A stretch of DNA of 64,000 bases, from NCBI RefSeq assembly GCF_900167555.1, contig NZ_FUYF01000005.1, positions 124,001 to 188,000 of the forward strand, given 5' to 3'. The DNA comes from Gemmiger formicilis. GTDB taxonomy: Bacteria; Bacillota; Clostridia; Oscillospirales; Ruminococcaceae. Both the position numbers and the translations under genes were made by a program. Numbering within the stretch: position 1 is the stretch's first letter; each line of letters opens with the position of its first letter. Positions 321 to 19,262 of the stretch are shown one piece after another. The notes under the pieces are model-generated. The model did no database searches and was not told the DNA's origin. It saw only the letters and a list, made by a program, of their open reading frames with translations.

Positions 321-1526
321 TTACTGCGTCGTCGTCAGCACTACATCGCCCATCGGCGCGGTAAGGGTCACGCTGCGGGGCGCAGCGGCTGTTTGGGTGT
401 AGGTGCTGCTCATCGTCCTGCCGTTGAACATCACATTCCCCATGGACGTTTGCAGGTCAAGCGCGTAATCGTCGGGCCTGCCGTCCACCGTCAGGTCAAT
501 ATCGCCCATGGCAGCTTCGACTTTAGCGGTTTCAACGCCCGCCAGCAGCCCCAAATCAAAATCGCCCATTGAGATATTCGCCGTAAACTGCTCTGCCTGC
601 ACGGTGCTACCGGTAAAGTTGCCCATCGCCAGGTCTAAGTCGATGCTGTCGGCGGCGATGGTATTGCTGTTGTCAAATTCTGCATCGCCCATAGCGACAG
701 TGATGGAGAGCCTTTTAAAATGGAAGGTATTCGCATCCGGCACGGACAGGACAAACTCAGGCCTGGGTCCCAGCTCTTTGCCGAGGTTGTAGTTGGCGGG
801 CACCTTGTAGCTGACACGCACCGGGCTTGTGTTGTCGCCCGTGTTGGTAAAGGTGAACCAGTCCTGACGCAGGTTCGTGCAGGAAAGGGTCGGCTCCGCC
901 GCACCACTGTCCACAACGACTGTGACCGCGCCGTAGTCGATGTCGAAGGTTATATTTTTGGCGTCGGCCAGACCGGTGGTGAAAACCATCTTCTCCAATG
1001 GCCTGCCGCTGTCCGCGTCCTCGGTGGCAGCGGTCCCGTTGTAAAAGTCCTCGTTGCGGACAAGACCGGATGCAGCAGTTTCTTCCTCCGTCGGCGCAAC
1101 AACCATCGACGCCGTGCCGCCGCCGGGCTTTGCAAAACCCAGCACAAGGACGCCCAGCTGAATGAGCAGCGCCGCAACAATGACAACGGCGAAAATCAGC
1201 CACATGGTTTTTGCCCCGGGACCGTGCTTTTGGGGCCGGGCGGGCTGTGGGTCGGCGGCGGGCGGCTCCGGGGCGGCGGGCGGCACAGCACCGCCGCGTG
1301 CGCTCTCGGGTGCGGCAGGGTCGGCGTCCGGCGTCAGCCCCTCCCCTTCCAGAATCTTGCGGGCGGCCTCGGCAGGGTCGCCCAGCTCGGCGGCGGTGGC
1401 GTCCTCGTTGTCGGGGCCTGCGGCGTCGAAGTATTCCTCATAATAATTCAGTGCGTCGCGGCGCGCATCAGCAGGCAGGGCAGACAGCCGCTTTTCCAGC
1501 TCGGATAAGTACTCGTATTTTTTCAT
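321..1526 (-). CDS. HAAS/DUF1700 membrane protein with C-terminal DUF4097 beta-helix domain
   Basis: 401 aa. Residues 1-65 (MKKYEYLSELEKRLSALP, NYYEEYFDAAG) match the HAAS/DUF1700 signalling domain usually paired with PadR regulators. A Pro/Ala-rich linker runs to about 105, one membrane span covers about 107-131 (WLIFAVVIVAALLIQLGVLV), and an extracytoplasmic domain from about 165 carries regularly spaced AMGD, SMGD, SMGN and PMGD motifs, the rung pattern of DUF4097. Its start overlaps the stop of the PadR gene by 4 nt, so the two are translationally coupled. The family is thought to act as an envelope sensor or anti-sigma-like partner; the ligand is unknown. Confidence 0.82.
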   Translation of the reverse strand: MKKYEYLSELEKRLSALPADARRDALNYYEEYFDAAGPDNEDATAAELGDPAEAARKILEGEGLTPDADPAAPESARGGAVPPAAPEPPAADPQPARPQKHGPGAKTMWLIFAVVIVAALLIQLGVLVLGFAKPGGGTASMVVAPTEEETAASGLVRNEDFYNGTAATEDADSGRPLEKMVFTTGLADAKNITFDIDYGAVTVVVDSGAAEPTLSCTNLRQDWFTFTNTGDNTSPVRVSYKVPANYNLGKELGPRPEFVLSVPDANTFHFKRLSITVAMGDAEFDNSNTIAADSIDLDLAMGNFTGSTVQAEQFTANISMGDFDLGLLAGVETAKVEAAMGDIDLTVDGRPDDYALDLQTSMGNVMFNGRTMSSTYTQTAAAPRSVTLTAPMGDVVLTTTQ

Positions 1527-1843
1527 TGCTGCTCCCCCTTAAAGAGCTTGTTGATCTTTGTGGTGTAGGCTTCCCACTCGGCGGTAAACTCTGCCAGCCG
1601 TGCGCGGCCTGCGGGCGTGATTTGATAGTAGCGGCGGTTGCGGCCATTGAAGGCTTCGTCATGGACGGTCAGGCAGCCGTCCTTTTGCAGGCGGCGCAGC
1701 ACCGGGTACAGCGTGGATTCCGACAGGTCCAGCACCGTGCGGACCTCCTGCGTGATCTTATAGCCGTAGGTGCCCGTTTTCTCCCGCCCGACGACAGCCA
1801 GCACAATGGCATCCAGCAGCCCCGCCGTGGTGTTGATGGCCAT
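1523..1843 (-). CDS. PadR family transcriptional regulator
   Basis: 106 aa, the usual size of a small PadR protein. The sequence has the winged-helix core (IVLAVVGREKTGTYGYKITQ, then TLYPVLRRLQKDG, then YYQITPAGRARL). PadR proteins dimerise through a C-terminal helix and repress neighbouring genes until a signal or ligand releases them. It is the first gene of a two-gene operon with the HAAS-DUF4097 protein, a common pairing in Firmicutes in which the membrane partner is presumed to modulate or report to the regulator. A perfect AT-rich inverted repeat 40 nt upstream is a plausible auto-operator. Confidence 0.9.
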   Translation of the reverse strand: MAINTTAGLLDAIVLAVVGREKTGTYGYKITQEVRTVLDLSESTLYPVLRRLQKDGCLTVHDEAFNGRNRRYYQITPAGRARLAEFTAEWEAYTTKINKLFKGEQQ

Positions 1844-14202: not shown

Positions 14203-15081
14203 TTACTGTGCGCTCGTCTCGCCGCCCTCGACCACGAGGCTGTCCTCATAGTCAGTGCCGTAGGTGTCAACGAGAGTGGCCTCATAGTCGGCGTGGAAGA
14301 AATTTTCCTTGCCCAGAGCCTTGATCTCGTCGTTGATGGCATTCAGCAGCGTCTCATTGCCCTTGCTGACGGCGGGGGCAATCGTGTCCTGGCTGCCCAG
14401 GGACGGGATGCCGACAGTGTAGCCGTGGTTCTGGCTGGCAAACGCAATGACCTCGGTGTTGTCGTTGGCCCAGGCCACACCGCCGTTCTCCATCGCGCTC
14501 TTGGCCGTGGCGTAGGAGTCATACTTCTGCAGCGGGATGTCAGGATAGTTCTGGGTCAGGTAGGTCTCTGCAGTAGTGCCGGAGATGACGATCATCTGGT
14601 CATCGGCGTTCCAGCTGTCCAGCGACGTGATGACGTTGGAGTCCGGGGAAACGACGCCCAGTGCAACGTTCATGTAGGGCAGCGCAAAATCGACCTCCTC
14701 GGCACGCTCCGGCGTGACCGTGAAGTTGGCCAGAATGACATCGACCTTGCCGGTCTGCAGGTACTCGATGCGGTTGGCGGCCTCGGTGGAGACGTAGTTC
14801 ACCTTGACGCCCAGATCCTCGGCCAGGCGGTTGGCAAAGTAGATGTCATAGCCCTGATACTCGCCGTTTTCATCGACGTAGCCGAACGGGTTCTTGTCAG
14901 AGAAAACGCCGATATTGATCGTGCCGTCCGCCTTGATCTCGTCCAGCGTGCGGTAAACAACACCGTCGGCGGATGCCGAGGTCGAGGCAGTGCCCGTGGA
15001 GGCGCTGCTGCCGCAGGCGGCCAGAGACAGGCTCAGGGTTGCGGCCAGGGCCGCGGCGGTCAATTTGGTTGCTTTTTTCAT
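14203..15081 (-). CDS. Amino-acid ABC transporter binding lipoprotein, probably cysteine/cystine-specific
   Basis: 292 aa. The signal sequence ends LAAC with lipid-anchored Cys at 23. The family 3 binding fold contains NPFGYVDENGEYQGYDI, EAANRIEYLQTGKVDVILAN and TPERAEEVDFALPYMNVALG, closely resembling what I know of Campylobacter CjaA (Cj0982), a structurally characterised cysteine-binding protein. It is the last gene of the operon permease-permease-ATPase-binding protein and is separated from the ATPase by a family A repeat. Cysteine as substrate is supported further by the Cys-rich leader ORF upstream of the operon. Confidence 0.85.
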   Translation of the reverse strand: MKKATKLTAAALAATLSLSLAACGSSASTGTASTSASADGVVYRTLDEIKADGTINIGVFSDKNPFGYVDENGEYQGYDIYFANRLAEDLGVKVNYVSTEAANRIEYLQTGKVDVILANFTVTPERAEEVDFALPYMNVALGVVSPDSNVITSLDSWNADDQMIVISGTTAETYLTQNYPDIPLQKYDSYATAKSAMENGGVAWANDNTEVIAFASQNHGYTVGIPSLGSQDTIAPAVSKGNETLLNAINDEIKALGKENFFHADYEATLVDTYGTDYEDSLVVEGGETSAQ

Positions 15082-15282: not shown

Positions 15283-16032
15283 TCACTTCACACTGTCAAA
15301 GGTGAAGGTGCGCAGGAACTTCTGCGCGCGCTCTGTCTTGGGGTGGTCGAAGAACGCCTCCGGCGTGCTCTCCTCGACGATTTTGCCGCCGTCCAGGAAA
15401 ATGACACGATCCGCAATCGCGCGGGCAAACTGCATCTCGTGGGTGACAATGATCATCGTGCGGCCCTGCTTCGCCAAATCGAGCATAACGTCCAGCACCT
15501 CGCGGACCATTTCGGGGTCAAGGGCTGCAGTCACTTCATCGAACAACAAAATTTCAGGGTGCATCGCCAGTGCGCGGACGATGGCAACGCGCTGCTTCTG
15601 GCCGCCGGACAGCTCCCGCGGGTAGCTCCTGGCCTTGTTCAGCAGGTTCACGCGGTCCAGCAGGGCCTCGGCTTCCTTCTGTACCTCGTCTTTGGGACGC
15701 TTGGCCACCTTGAGCGGAGCCAGCATAACGTTGTCCAGCACGGTCAGATGCGGGAACAGCTCATAGCTCTGGAATACCATGCCGATGCGCTGGCGCAGAC
15801 TCGTCAGCCCCTTGCCGCCGTAGGCAACAGTCTCATTGCCCAGACGGACGCGCCCGCTCTGGGTGGGCTCCAGCGCGTTGATGCAGCGCAGCAGCGTGCT
15901 CTTGCCGCAGCCGCTGGGGCCTACCACCACGACGACCTCGCCGGGACGGACGGAAAAGCTGACGTCATCCAGCACGGTATTTTCCCCATAGCCCTTGACC
16001 AGATGCTCTACGGTCAAAATCGGTTCTGCCAT
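15283..16032 (-). CDS. Amino-acid ABC transporter ATP-binding protein (GlnQ/TcyC type)
   Basis: 249 aa. Walker [10 protein letters not shown] at 38-46, Q-loop FQSYELFPH, signature LSGGQKQ at 141-147, Walker B ILLFDE at 161-166 and the switch His in IIVTHEM. Length and motifs are typical for polar amino-acid importers. It powers the two permeases encoded directly upstream. It begins 6 nt after permease 2 stops, with a ribosome site inside the end of that gene. Confidence 0.93.
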
Positions 16033-16038
16033 GGTTCC

Positions 16039-16713
16039 TTACCTCCATTTTTTCTCTAAGTACGATGCCAGCAGGCTGATGGGCCAGCAGGTGAGGAAAT
16101 ACAGCAGGAACACGACCAGATAGATGCCGAATGCAGCGTTCGGGCTGGCCATGCGGTTGGCCTCAATGATCTGCTGCGCGACCTTCAGCACCTCGACGAC
16201 ACCGATCATCAGCACAAGGCTGGTGGTCTTGATCATACGAGTGATCAGGTTGATGCTCAACGGGATCAGGCGGCGCACCGTCTGCGGAATGATGATGTAC
16301 CAATAGGTCTGCGCCTTCGTCAGGCCCAGCGCCTCGCTGCTCTCATACTGGTGCTTCGGGATGGAGATCAGCGCGCCTCTCACAAGGTCGCTCATCTCTG
16401 CCGTGCCCCACAGCACAAACACGACGACGGATGCCGTCTCGCCCGAGAGGTCCCAGCCCCACGCGCGGGTCGTGCCGAAAAACACAAGGAACAGCAGCAC
16501 CATCTGCGGCATAATGCGGATGATTTCGAGATAAACCCGCAGGATGGCTTTTACAACGGGGTTTTTGCCGCTCATCAGCACGCCCAGCAGGATGCCCAGC
16601 GGGATGCTGATGGCGACGGAAAGCAGGCTGATGCGCAGGGCCACCCACAGGCCGCCCAGCAGGCGGGCCATGTTTTTGCCCTTGAGCAGTACGTTAAGCC
16701 CCAAATCCGGCAT
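16039..16713 (-). CDS. Amino-acid ABC transporter permease 2 (HisM/GlnP type)
   Basis: 224 aa with about five spans. The ATPase-contact loop reads HQYESSEALGLTKAQTYWYI. Its start overlaps the end of permease 1 by 20 nt, so translation is coupled. It forms a heterodimer with permease 1. Confidence 0.9.
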   Translation of the reverse strand: MPDLGLNVLLKGKNMARLLGGLWVALRISLLSVAISIPLGILLGVLMSGKNPVVKAILRVYLEIIRIMPQMVLLFLVFFGTTRAWGWDLSGETASVVVFVLWGTAEMSDLVRGALISIPKHQYESSEALGLTKAQTYWYIIIPQTVRRLIPLSINLITRMIKTTSLVLMIGVVEVLKVAQQIIEANRMASPNAAFGIYLVVFLLYFLTCWPISLLASYLEKKWR

Positions 16714-17353
16714 AGCGCAGCCTCCTTTCCAGCAGAGACCCCAGCAGCGAAACCGGGAGCAGGATCAGCAGGTAAAAGACCACAAGAAGGAACAGGCTCT
16801 CGGTGGTTTTGTAGTACAGGCCGATGAGGTCCTTCGCCGTGAACATCAGGTCCATCAGGCTGATAGCGCTGAACACGCTGGTTTCCTTTAAAAGGAAAAT
16901 GACATTGGCAACGAACGCCGGGACGCTGGTGGACATAGCCTGCGGCAGGATGACGTAGCGCATCGTCTGCATCCGGTCCATGCCAAGGCTGTAGGCGCTC
17001 TCGGTCTGGATCGGCTCGATGGATTCCAGCCCGCTGCGGAACGCCTCTACCATGTAGCTGCCGCCCAGAAACGCCAGACCTGCAATGCCGCAGACCGCAG
17101 CGTCAGTCCTGATGCCGATCTTCGGCAAACCATAATAGATGAAAAACAACTGGACCAGGAGCGGCGTGTTGCGGCTGAGCTGGATGTAAAAGCCGACGAC
17201 GCGGCGCAGCACAGACACCTTATAATACTGGACCAGTGCGCAGACCAGCCCGATGACAATAGCCAGCGCGATACCTGCCAGCCCCAGACGCAGGGTCAGC
17301 CACGCCGCTTTTTCAAACAGCGGCAGGTACTGTGCGACCACATTCCAATCCAC
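16694..17353 (-). CDS. Amino-acid ABC transporter permease 1 (HisQ/GlnP type)
   Basis: 219 aa, five spans, starting MDWNVVAQYLPLFEKAAWLT. The contact loop is IEPIQTESAYSLGMDRMQTM and the preceding RNTPLLVQLFFIYYGLP is the hallmark of the polar amino-acid permease family. First gene of the operon; about 500 nt of leader, including a candidate attenuator and a MITE-like insertion, separates it from its promoter at 17865..17893. Confidence 0.92.
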   Translation of the reverse strand: MDWNVVAQYLPLFEKAAWLTLRLGLAGIALAIVIGLVCALVQYYKVSVLRRVVGFYIQLSRNTPLLVQLFFIYYGLPKIGIRTDAAVCGIAGLAFLGGSYMVEAFRSGLESIEPIQTESAYSLGMDRMQTMRYVILPQAMSTSVPAFVANVIFLLKETSVFSAISLMDLMFTAKDLIGLYYKTTESLFLLVVFYLLILLPVSLLGSLLERRLRYAGFGA

Positions 17354-17390
17354 AAAAGTCTCCCCTTCCCTATCGGGTCACGAACAAATT

Positions 17391-17679
17391 TAGGGCAATA
17401 CCGCATAATTCTAAGTGCCGATACGGCGAGCGAGGTGCGGCAGCTGCTAAGCCAAAAGCGCAGATAATACTTTGTGCTGCAAAGGTGAGCGCCGCCAGTG
17501 GCGGATGCAGCGAACCGAAGCAGGGGCAGCGGTCGCAGAGTGCGAGGGGCTTTTGCCCCGAAGCACGATGCGGGTACCGCAACCCGACATTATCGAGCAT
17601 TTTGGCAACGCAGATGCCGTGCCGCAGCCGCCGGAGCGGTGCTTAAGCCGTAAGGCGGGAATTATGCGGTGTTGCCTTA
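17391..17679. mobile_element. MITE-like element with 21-bp terminal inverted repeats
   Basis: The left end reads TAGGGCAATACCGCATAATT(C) at 17391-17411; the right end (17659-17679), read on the other strand, is identical except at two positions. Inside these, the element is 284 bp (17393-17676) and flanked by TTA on both sides, a possible target duplication. It encodes no transposase and no convincing gene. It lies in the leader of the amino-acid transporter, between the attenuator terminator and permease 1. Confidence 0.8.
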
Positions 17680-17683
17680 GGCA

Positions 17684-17720
17684 CAAAAAAATCCGGGCCT
17701 TCTCTGCGAGGGTTCCCGGA
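17684..17720 (-). terminator. Terminator in the leader of the amino-acid transporter (candidate attenuator)
   Basis: On the minus strand TCCGGG (17720-17715) pairs with CCCGGA (17697-17692), with additional inner CTC/GAG pairing, followed by seven T (17691-17685). It begins 13 nt after the leader ORF stop codon and precedes all structural genes, the arrangement expected of transcription attenuation. Confidence 0.85.
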
Positions 17721-17732
17721 CAAAGGTCAGGT

Positions 17733-17810
17733 TCAACACATGGGGGTTCTGGTAGGCCCCACAGACCATGCCCGGTGACAGCGCATACGACAACAACACA
17801 TAGCGGACAT
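17733..17810 (-). CDS. Cys-rich leader peptide of the amino-acid transporter operon
   Basis: 25 codons plus TGA. The peptide starts MSAMCCCRMRCHRAW and ends TPMC, with five Cys in 25 residues, three of them consecutive TGT codons at 17798-17790. AAGGGG lies 9 nt upstream of the ATG. It is too short and too biased to be a normal protein; it has the form of a leader whose translation senses charged tRNA-Cys. Placement is promoter, this ORF, terminator, then transporter genes for a CjaA-like (cysteine) system. Function is inferred. Confidence 0.65.
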   Translation of the reverse strand: MSAMCCCRMRCHRAWSVGPTRTPMC

Positions 17811-17864
17811 AGCGGTATTCCCCTTTCCTGTTTTTGGTTTGCATTGTTCAAACCCGATGCCAGT

Positions 17865-17893
17865 ATAATATACCTATATACCTAGAATGTCAA
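17865..17893 (-). promoter_or_regulatory. Promoter of the amino-acid transporter leader
   Basis: Consensus TTGACA (17893-17888), 17-nt spacer, TATTAT (17870-17865). Transcription would begin near 17858, giving about 48 nt before the leader ORF. Confidence 0.8.
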
Positions 17894-17932
17894 TAGGTTT
17901 TTGGCTTTTTATTTGGCTTTTTCTGCAAAATA

Positions 17933-17973
17933 ATTGCGCCGCGTTTGTGTAGAGTGCACAAACGCGGCGCAAT
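17933..17973. terminator. Perfect 17-bp hairpin between tuf terminator and transporter promoter
   Basis: ATTGCGCCGCGTTTGTG (17933-17949) pairs exactly with 17957-17973 across a 7-nt loop. TGTTTT follows on the plus strand side and TATTTTG on the minus side. It may be a second terminator that insulates the transporter promoter from str operon read-through. Confidence 0.6.
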
Positions 17974-18002
17974 GTGTTTTATGACGTGGGGGCGCACCAA
18001 AA

Positions 18003-18032
18003 AAGGGCGCTGCCCTTGCGGACAGCGCCCTT
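18003..18032 (-). terminator. Terminator of the str operon (after tuf)
   Basis: On the minus strand GGGCGCTG pairs with CAGCGCCC, followed by TTTTTT, 25 nt after the tuf stop. Confidence 0.9.
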
Positions 18033-18056
18033 TGTATTGCTTTTCAGAGCAAGAAA

Positions 18057-19262
18057 TTACTTCTCGATCTTGGAAACAACGCCGGAACCAACGGTGTGGC
18101 CGCCCTCGCGGATAGCAAAACGCAGGCCCTCTTCCATGGCAACGGGGGTGATCAGCTCAACATGCATATCGACGTTGTCGCCGGGCATGCACATCTCGGT
18201 GCCCTCGGGCAGGGTGATGATGCCGGTAACGTCGGTGGTGCGGAAGTAGAACTGAGGACGATAGTTGTTGAAGAACGGGGTATGACGGCCGCCCTCTTCC
18301 TTCTTCAGGACGTAAACGTGGCCGTCGAAGGTGGTGTGGGGATGAACAGAGCCGGGCTGGCACAGGCACTGGCCACGCTCGATCTGGTCACGGTCAACGC
18401 CACGCAGCAGGGCGCCGATGTTATCGCCAGCCTGAGCGAACTCCAGGCTCTTGCGGAACATCTCGAGGCCGGTGATGGTGGTGGTCATCTTCTCTTCCTT
18501 GATACCGACGATCTCCATCTGGTCGCCGACGTGGGCAGTACCACGCTCGACACGACCGGTGGCGACGGTGCCACGGCCAGAAATGGTCATGACGTCCTCA
18601 ACGGGCATCAGGAAGGGCTTGTCAGCAGCACGATCAGGAGTGGGGATGTAGCTGTCAACAGCGTCCATCAGCTCCCAAATGCACTTGTACTCGGGGGCGT
18701 TGGGATCGGTGCTGGTGGACTCCAGAGCCTTCAGAGCAGAACCACGGATGATGGGGGTGTTGTCGCCATCGAAGTCGTACTCGCTCAGCAGCTCACGGAT
18801 CTCCATCTCGACCAGATCCAGCAGCTCCTCGTCGTCGACCATGTCGCACTTGTTCATGAAGACAACGATCTTGGGCACGCCGACCTGACGGGCGAGCAGG
18901 ATGTGCTCACGGGTCTGGGGCATGGGACCATCGGTAGCAGCGACGACCAGGATAGCGCCGTCCATCTGAGCAGCACCGGTGATCATGTTCTTGATGTAGT
19001 CAGCATGGCCCGGGCAGTCAACGTGGGCGTAGTGACGCTTCTCGGTGTGGTACTCAACGTGAGCGGTGTTGATCGTGATACCACGAGCCTTCTCCTCGGG
19101 AGCCTTGTCGATGCTGGAGTAATCCATGAAGTCGGCGTCGCCCTTCAGAGCCAGAGTCTTGGTGATGGCAGCGGTCAGAGTGGTCTTGCCGTGGTCAACG
19201 TGACCGATGGTGCCAATGTTGACGTGCTCCAAAGAGCGGTCAAATTTTTCCTTTTCAGCCAT
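18057..19262 (-). CDS. tuf: Translation elongation factor Tu
   Basis: 401 aa. The GTPase motifs GHVDHGKT (20-27), DCPGH and NKCD, and the C-terminal [10 protein letters not shown] signature are present. EF-Tu delivers aminoacyl-tRNA to the ribosome. Last gene of the str operon, with an extra internal promoter in the 108-nt gap after fusA (19313..19341) that allows higher expression than its neighbours. AAGGAGG lies 9 nt before the ATG. Confidence 0.98.

Follow-up and report, generated by a model that had tools for sequence, protein, structure and literature searches.

A cysteine-codon leader ahead of an amino-acid importer in Gemmiger formicilis, a probable member of a clostridial family of ribosome-mediated attenuators

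In the 64-kb stretch of Gemmiger formicilis DNA analysed here (the window), the leader of an ABC importer operon probably acts as a ribosome-mediated (trp-type) transcription attenuator that senses the supply of cysteinyl-tRNA, with an antiterminator made of two pairings, A:B and A':B'. We put the probability of this reading, reached by sequence comparison and RNA folding, at roughly 0.83. It is furthermore well supported across genomes that the element represents a family of cysteine-linked, putatively ribosome-mediated attenuators in Clostridia.

In the proposed mechanism, RNA polymerase would transcribe the leader while a ribosome translates a small ORF. When Cys-tRNA is scarce, the ribosome would stall on a TGT run directly upstream of A, and A and A', left free, would pair with B' and B once the polymerase had made them; the terminator 5' arm would then be occupied and the polymerase would continue into the importer genes. 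When Cys-tRNA is plentiful, the ribosome would cover A and A', B would pair with C, and transcription would end at the T-tract. Translation, stalling, termination and the response to cysteine are what we infer from the following features:

17865..17893, minus strand: sigma-70-type promoter, TTGACA-17-TATTAT, with its -35 box inside the palindrome ACCTA-N9-TAGGT (17898-17880)
17733..17810, minus strand: leader ORF MSAMCCCRMRCHRAWSVGPTRTPMC, 25 codons plus stop, with a ribosome site 5' of it
17790..17798, minus strand: tandem TGT TGT TGT, the putative control codons, at codons -7 to -5 relative to element A
17769..17778, minus strand: element A (TCACCGGGCA; family consensus CUCCCGGGCA), predicted antiterminator 5' strand
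17764..17767, minus strand: element A' (GGUC), partner of B' (GACC), from the window fold and family covariation
17725..17728, minus strand: element B' (GACC), from the window fold and family covariation
17713..17722, minus strand: element B (UGUCCGGGAA), predicted antiterminator 3' strand and terminator 5' arm
17685..17697, minus strand: element C (CCCGGA, terminator 3' arm) and T-tract (17691-17685)
16694..17353, minus strand: amino-acid ABC permease, the gene predicted to be controlled, start GTG at 17353
16039..16713, minus strand: second ABC permease of the operon
15283..16032, minus strand: ABC ATPase, best NCBIfam model L-cystine TcyN
14203..15081, minus strand: CjaA-like substrate-binding lipoprotein, best PDB matches 1xt8 and 2yjp

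The promoter (TTGACA at 17893-17888, TATTAT at 17870-17865) matches the consensus at 11 of 12 positions with a 17-bp spacer, and is the sole promoter-like site in a scan of 17200-18100, for which shuffles average 0.7. The leader ORF runs from ATG at 17810 to TGA at 17735-17733, contains five Cys codons and is preceded by the purine-rich ribosome site GGAAAGGGGA. No other ATG ORF of 8-60 codons with Cys-Cys-Cys occurs on either strand of the window, and dinucleotide shuffles of 17684-17893 yielded an 8-60-codon ORF with Cys-Cys-Cys in 4 of 2000 cases (2 of 2000 with at least five Cys). Between the leader ORF and the first gene, sequence and fold both reveal an intrinsic terminator: TCCGGG (17720-17715) and CCCGGA (17697-17692) form a hairpin of -13.9 kcal/mol followed by seven T (17691-17685). 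A simple terminator scan did not list it because the loop exceeds the length that scan allows. The whole leader folds into the terminator form and is not more stable than shuffles (z 0.08). A sequence-only reading of this DNA had described the near-consensus promoter, the 25-codon ORF with its ribosome site and five Cys codons (three as tandem TGT), the strong terminator and the position ahead of the first permease gene; all of these were confirmed, the next gene being the permease. The gene on the other side of the leader from the ABC operon is, we assume, that of elongation factor Tu. A hairpin of 17-19 pairs (17933-17973), just 5' of the leader promoter, scans as a terminator on both strands.

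The operon behind the leader is likely to import cysteine. The top PDB matches of its binding protein are 1xt8 (E 1.4e-69) and 2yjp (E 6.1e-67), which we take to be CjaA and Ngo2014, both cysteine-binding; the first of these matches upholds the resemblance to CjaA that had been proposed. The ATPase scores 288.1 bits against TcyN, under the model cut-off of 406, with GlnQ nearly equal.

The organisation of a putative leader ORF with a ribosome site and a Cys codon run recurs in relatives. At E<=1e-60, 3 of 35 genus genomes have the permease. From named genomes, 80 permease loci were kept out of 502 confirmed, and the permease-bearing genomes include Gemmiger formicilis, Faecalibacterium, Roseburia, Hungatella, Hominifimenecus and many labelled Lachnospiraceae or Oscillospiraceae. 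Part of the permease loci carry, within up to 600 bases upstream, Cys-run ORFs with one common layout: Cys codons, A (consensus CUCCCGGGCA) directly 3' of them, 54-130 bases, the terminator 5' arm B (consensus UGCCCGGGAG), C (CUCCCGGU) and a T run. Conserved Cys-run ORFs in relatives had been named as a check on the sequence-only reading, and the Cys run and layout are indeed seen again ahead of some of the orthologous permeases and also in front of other Cys/Met genes. The leader peptides of close relatives are MSAMCCCRMYCHRAWSMGRTSTPMC in L007 and L141 and MCNVCCCRMCCHRPWSMARLVASVC in L142. In the latter locus (G014, same genus) the permease frame departs from its orthologue after about 39 residues; the leader looks intact.

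Two covariance models were built, R1 from 15 leaders and R2 from 69. R1 was run against 81 of 83 permease loci (L008 and L015 were left out) and matched 26 below E 1e-6, the 15 training leaders counted; the other 55 gave no match below this value in the upstream DNA examined. At several matched loci the leader precedes a sulfhydrylase, cysK or binding-protein gene lying 5' of the permease. At E<=0.05, R1 matched 13 of 347 family, 27 of 394 order and 13 of 391 class genomes, in samples that overlap, each contain the window's own genome and include a few chance or other matches, with stricter filters applying in the large searches. Among the R1 matches, reading marked L132 as chance-like, L123 as weak and L101 as a leader for another amino acid. 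R2 matched 6 of 35 genus genomes at E<=0.05 (5 once the chance-like G026 is left out) and 7 of 388 phylum genomes, a few of them outside the class and one (L148) chance-like; at E<=0.01 it matched 29 of 394 order genomes, with L151 chance-like. L140, L148 and L151 were taken as chance by eye. From these counts the element is widespread but patchy, and its carriers include records labelled Oscillospiraceae and Lachnospiraceae. The window's genome holds a second copy, L102 (G000:C58:31478-31626, leader MAHVFGDLLRQNFRCGRMPNSRANAVRARGNALHCL), before an O-acetylhomoserine sulfhydrylase gene.

The genes downstream fit the cysteine/methionine pathway (sulfhydrylase, permease, MetQ, MetN, cysK). Among 46 new loci, the gene behind the leader encodes O-acetylhomoserine sulfhydrylase in 19 (by blastp to L102), a permease in 10 (the weak L123 counted), a MetQ-like protein in 6, a MetN-like protein in 3, a cystathionine synthase/lyase-like enzyme in 2 and a member of the dicarboxylate/amino-acid symporter family in 2. 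An amidohydrolase, a glutamate-cysteine ligase region and a DAHP-synthase-like gene (L101, by eye) occur once each, and one locus has none. The element also stands before cysK (L021) and before a CjaA-like binding protein (L080, L149). NCBIfam models were run on L126 (MetQ), L110 (MetN), L137 (amidohydrolase), L117, L121, L134, L135, L124, L021 and L102, and regulon genes outside this set were named by likeness; that the symporter transports cystine is a guess. Recurrence, spacing and these Cys/Met genes all support the earlier proposal of a Cys attenuator that would work by ribosome stalling ahead of a CjaA-like importer. Nine-Cys leaders with a diverged A/B pair occur at L021 (853-1002, peptide MANNCCKNLCCCRMLVYRICCVIRCSSRLCYA), L030 (1403-1552) and L045 (830-979). 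At L101 (match 1501-1616, minus strand) the leader MARLFTANYYYGFAFYGKVFVCCEHSRAV precedes what by eye is a DAHP-synthase-like gene, possibly a similarly laid-out Tyr/Phe attenuator from the same bacterial family.

The distance between Cys codons and A was determined in 51 distinct leaders, obtained from the 69 by removing near-duplicates after L132, L101 and L123 had been dropped. Counted relative to A, 41 of the 51 leaders have Cys at codon -6, using both TGT (34) and TGC (7); at codon -5, 33 have Cys and 12 have Gly. The 3'-most Cys among codons -8 to -3 falls at -5 or -6 in 42 leaders, two or more Cys lie among these codons in 33, and the phase of the ORF relative to A is the same in 48. 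In five leaders, reading in the assumed phase puts no Cys at codons -8 to -3; three of these have Cys runs in another phase relative to A, and two (L120, L122) do not. L153, outside the 51, likewise has no Cys at these codons. Counting TGY codons by frame before A gave 103 in frame and 89 and 11 in the others, a poor separation that arises because ATGTGT-like sequence creates out-of-frame TGT. Leaders were then folded with a ribosome mask whose 3' end was assumed to lie 12 bases beyond the first nucleotide of the stalled codon. The antiterminator formed in 35 (stall at codon -6) or 34 (codon -5) of the 51, with the terminator remaining the minimum-energy form in 15 or 16; masking A gave the terminator in 47, and folding without a ribosome gave 26 antiterminators and 25 terminators. 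The control codons are thus placed so that, in this model, a stalled ribosome would leave the antiterminator strand free, and the remark in the sequence-only reading to the same effect fits the 3'-most Cys at -5/-6.

Covariation supports the antiterminator. In the model alignment, both sides change in 12 of the 15 pairs of A:B (10 pairs) and A':B' (5 pairs), 90.7% of cells are paired against 84.1% when shuffled and at most 48% in slides, and none of 500 shuffles reaches any of five measures (kinship ignored). Since such an alignment leans towards the structure, A and B were also counted on ungapped blocks from the 51 leaders, where 462 of 510 A:B cells are paired, compared to a permutation mean of 437 (sd 3) and a maximum of 449 in 10000 runs (kinship ignored). 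Position 8 of A:B alone has G-C in 30, A-U in 8 and G-U in 7 leaders. The positions of A and B were chosen as the best fit to the consensus (L073 by hand; B is doubtful in L021 and its kin); this lifts the level of pairing but is not expected to give a leader's own partner an advantage over permuted ones. In a swap test on the same leaders, A with its own B was unmatched by permuted partners (0 of 5000 as good, kinship ignored), whereas A with its own C, the 3' arm, was no better than permuted (1535 of 5000). Hence the family antiterminator uses the terminator 5' arm, and a family-level antiterminator with the 3' arm was rejected. Covarying antiterminator pairing in relatives had also been named as a check, and the covariation was found, with the 5' arm as partner and not the 3' arm that had been expected.

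The controls are not entirely silent. Among those of the swap test, the supposedly neutral A' against B-60..-36 was also significant (0/5000), and A-40..-16 against B' did not clearly reach significance (323/5000). In a shuffled-partner test, A' against the 12 bases before B was strongest, the own partner being better in 46 of 51 leaders (p 4.6e-9); three controls gave 25/51 (p 0.086), 32/51 (p 6.1e-4) and 27/51 (p 0.16), A' against B-60..-36 gave 39/51 (p 1.2e-4) and a P2-like pairing 40/51 (p 3e-6). As the second control and the extra pairings also score, composition or further helices are at work as well. A protector helix P1 around A-A' is suggested (9/5000; 37/51, p 3.5e-5), though it is not clear in the window and is not part of the model above. 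Taken family-wide, the covariation indicates an antiterminator that would be mutually exclusive with the terminator.

In its partner arm the window may differ from its family. In the 5'-arm form, CCGGGCA (17775-17769) pairs with UGUCCGG (17722-17716), and a further helix of GGUC (17767-17764) and GACC (17728-17725) adds to it. With A free, this form has -28.0 kcal/mol and the terminator -26.3, and the minimum-energy fold, at -32.0, instead pairs CCGGGC (17775-17770) with GCCCGG (17698-17693) of the 3' arm and UCUGUGGGG with CCCUCGCAGA. The sequence-only reading had proposed the CCGGGC:GCCCGG pairing as antiterminator; the two segments are present and can pair, but the 3' arm lacks covariation in the family. 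A same Cys attenuator in which the window has, as a local variant, an antiterminator of A with the terminator 3' arm and loop is unlikely in our judgement, even with the lowest energy on its side. In L007, a close relative, the loop pairing is gone and the three forms differ little in energy (3' arm -30.2, 5' arm -29.9, terminator -30.7); the family has no A by 3'-arm co-variation; and B is transcribed before C, the window folded only to the end of B forming A:B with GGUC:GACC. Because the 3'-arm form is its minimum, mask folding scores the window as neither form under Cys masks. With A masked the window's score is terminator, and in ribosome-free folds it is terminator or neither, according to the start point chosen; L007 was scored as terminator under Cys masks. 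As both alternative pairings of A prevent the terminator, the functional reading is the same for either.

A different sensor could be considered, with the nascent leader peptide exerting control as an arrest peptide, instead of or besides hungry Cys codons. What speaks for it is a sister class of 15 leaders carrying NFR(C/F)GRM, mostly with LLR before it, to which the second copy in the window's genome belongs (L100, L102, L110, L113, L114, L116, L118, L119, L120, L136-L139, L143 and L152). Codons -13 to -5 of this class are constrained in frame (pS 0.71, pN 0.13, compared to 0.17/0.29 and 0.16/0.29 in the shifted frames; pS 0.78, pN 0.14 minus four genus mates), and the codon at the control place is Cys in 13 of 15 leaders and Phe in two (L120, L143), the latter a hint of nascent-chain sensing. 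Since a shortage affecting a single codon does not on its own account for conservation of the residues before it, help from the nascent chain is a hypothesis to take seriously in the sister class. The window's class, however, shows no peptide constraint before its Cys run (37 leaders, L074, L064, L082, L135 and L021 dropped; codons -14 to -8 with pS 0.77, pN 0.64), and 33 of the 51 leaders have at least two Cys within codons -8 to -3, as expected of a codon sensor. Nascent-chain sensing is not needed for the window leader, and we regard control by its peptide as very unlikely. Tentatively, one RNA switch may serve two sensors. The window's class would rely on hungry Cys codons, the sister class on an arrest peptide that would sense cysteine or a related sulfur metabolite and control O-acetylhomoserine sulfhydrylase, MetN and the amidohydrolase. 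We consider this arrangement possible rather than probable.

The conserved nucleotides CGAAUG and CUCCCGGGCA within the leader might instead belong to a ligand-binding riboswitch, or to a leader bound by a protein, with the Cys ORF playing no part. The window, however, has no match at gathering score among 4227 Rfam models, T-box RF00230 included, and a search of 14 leader loci up to E 2 yielded a single sub-threshold match, to sagA and outside the leader. On these searches, a T-box or other known riboswitch was rejected for the window leader. With in-frame Cys codons also at a near-fixed distance from A (TGT 34 and TGC 7 at codon -6), an incidental ORF is barely credible. The window copy could also be a decayed remnant, since a 283-bp insertion (17676-17394, minus strand), missed by the sequence-only reading, separates terminator from permease. 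The insertion is a repeat with inverted ends (GGCAAYACCGCATAATTC) and a 4-bp target duplication, CTAA, at 17680-17677 and 17393-17390; parts of it are widespread in the genome (77 matches, its own copy counted), and L007 lacks it at the corresponding place. It lies downstream of the entire switch, however, and leaves promoter, ORF, A, B and C undamaged and in agreement with L007, where nothing interrupts the region, which makes decay highly improbable.

A second layer of control is suggested by the palindrome over the -35 box, which may bind a repressor. When the highest-scoring promoter-like pair was picked for each leader from the 200 bases 5' of A, it reached at least 9 of 12 in 58 of 58 leaders, and perfect 5-bp arms (ACCTA...TAGGT) flank the -35 box in 19 of 58, compared to 2.5 in shuffles (maximum 6). 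An Rrf2/CymR-type protein is our guess for the candidate repressor.

Ribosome-mediated transcription attenuators of the trp/his type are known from Proteobacteria. The clostridial element resembles them in its control-codon leader peptide, the exclusive antiterminator A:B and terminator B:C and the amino-acid operon downstream, and differs in lineage and in a two-part A-A':B'-B antiterminator whose 5' strand is coded in the ORF after the control codons. Mycobacteria reportedly have poly-Cys leaderless ORFs, an observation said to be Canestrari's (2020) and listed among the references of PMC13236596; the window leader, with its ribosome site and terminator, is not of this attenuator type (leaderless, no conserved terminator hairpin). 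The branched-chain leader of Listeria is likewise said to act by leader-peptide attenuation. Firmicutes are usually pictured as sensing cysteine supply via tRNA-binding T-boxes. The window's genome has nine T-box matches, three above the Rfam cut-off and all away from the window. The genes behind them we take by eye to be tRNA synthetases, ilvB-, leuA- and asnB-like genes and a binding protein, with no Cys gene recognised behind any of the nine. No T-box was found in 20 permease loci first taken as being without a Cys leader (L021, L023, L027 and L030 match R1 further upstream).

Cys T-boxes of C. perfringens precede cysK, cysP1, cysP2 and ubiG (PMC2940859). The element would share with them the charged tRNA-Cys signal, the same kinds of gene and transcription termination, but T-boxes bind tRNA directly. 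The clostridial element matches no T-box model in Rfam, and its sensing would depend on a ribosome in the act of translation. A His leader peptide is described in Bacilli (PMC2965389). The element, like this His leader and the Listeria one, would be a case of leader-peptide attenuation in Firmicutes, differing in amino acids and genes. Cys-codon leader ORFs are described in Actinobacteria for the cys operon of Mycobacterium and Propionibacterium acnes and for cbs of Bifidobacterium, with Cys runs close to the stop codon and no conserved terminator hairpins reported (PMC1262725). As in the clostridial leaders, a Cys-run peptide there precedes cysteine genes; unlike the Actinobacterial leaders, the clostridial element has an intrinsic terminator, a covarying antiterminator, a ribosome site and its main Cys run well before the stop. 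The uORFC-8-2 motif upstream of cysS in Rhodobacterales has tandem Cys codons in a leader ORF and a terminator-like U run (PMC8632094). In this motif, reported only for cysS in Rhodobacterales, the Cys codons lie inside the first stem, whereas those of the clostridial element lie 5' of A. The statement in the sequence-only reading that Cys leader peptides are mainly Actinobacterial should be widened: they are described there (PMC1262725), but the present element is found in many Clostridia, and a leader before cysS has been published for Rhodobacterales (PMC8632094). In searches of an open-access library, at the level of titles, abstract openings and selected passages, we found no earlier report of the element or of Cys leader attenuation in Clostridia.

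For a cysteine/methionine gene set, many Clostridia seem to rely on a ribosome translating a tiny Cys-rich ORF rather than on T-boxes. With the covariance model such leaders can be searched for, and it predicts that many transporters and PLP enzymes are under cysteine control. The sister class is an arrest-peptide candidate open to test; if the two-sensor reading were true, it would add a new arrest peptide that senses a metabolite, and would offer a rare example of one attenuator on which codon sensing and nascent-chain sensing change places.
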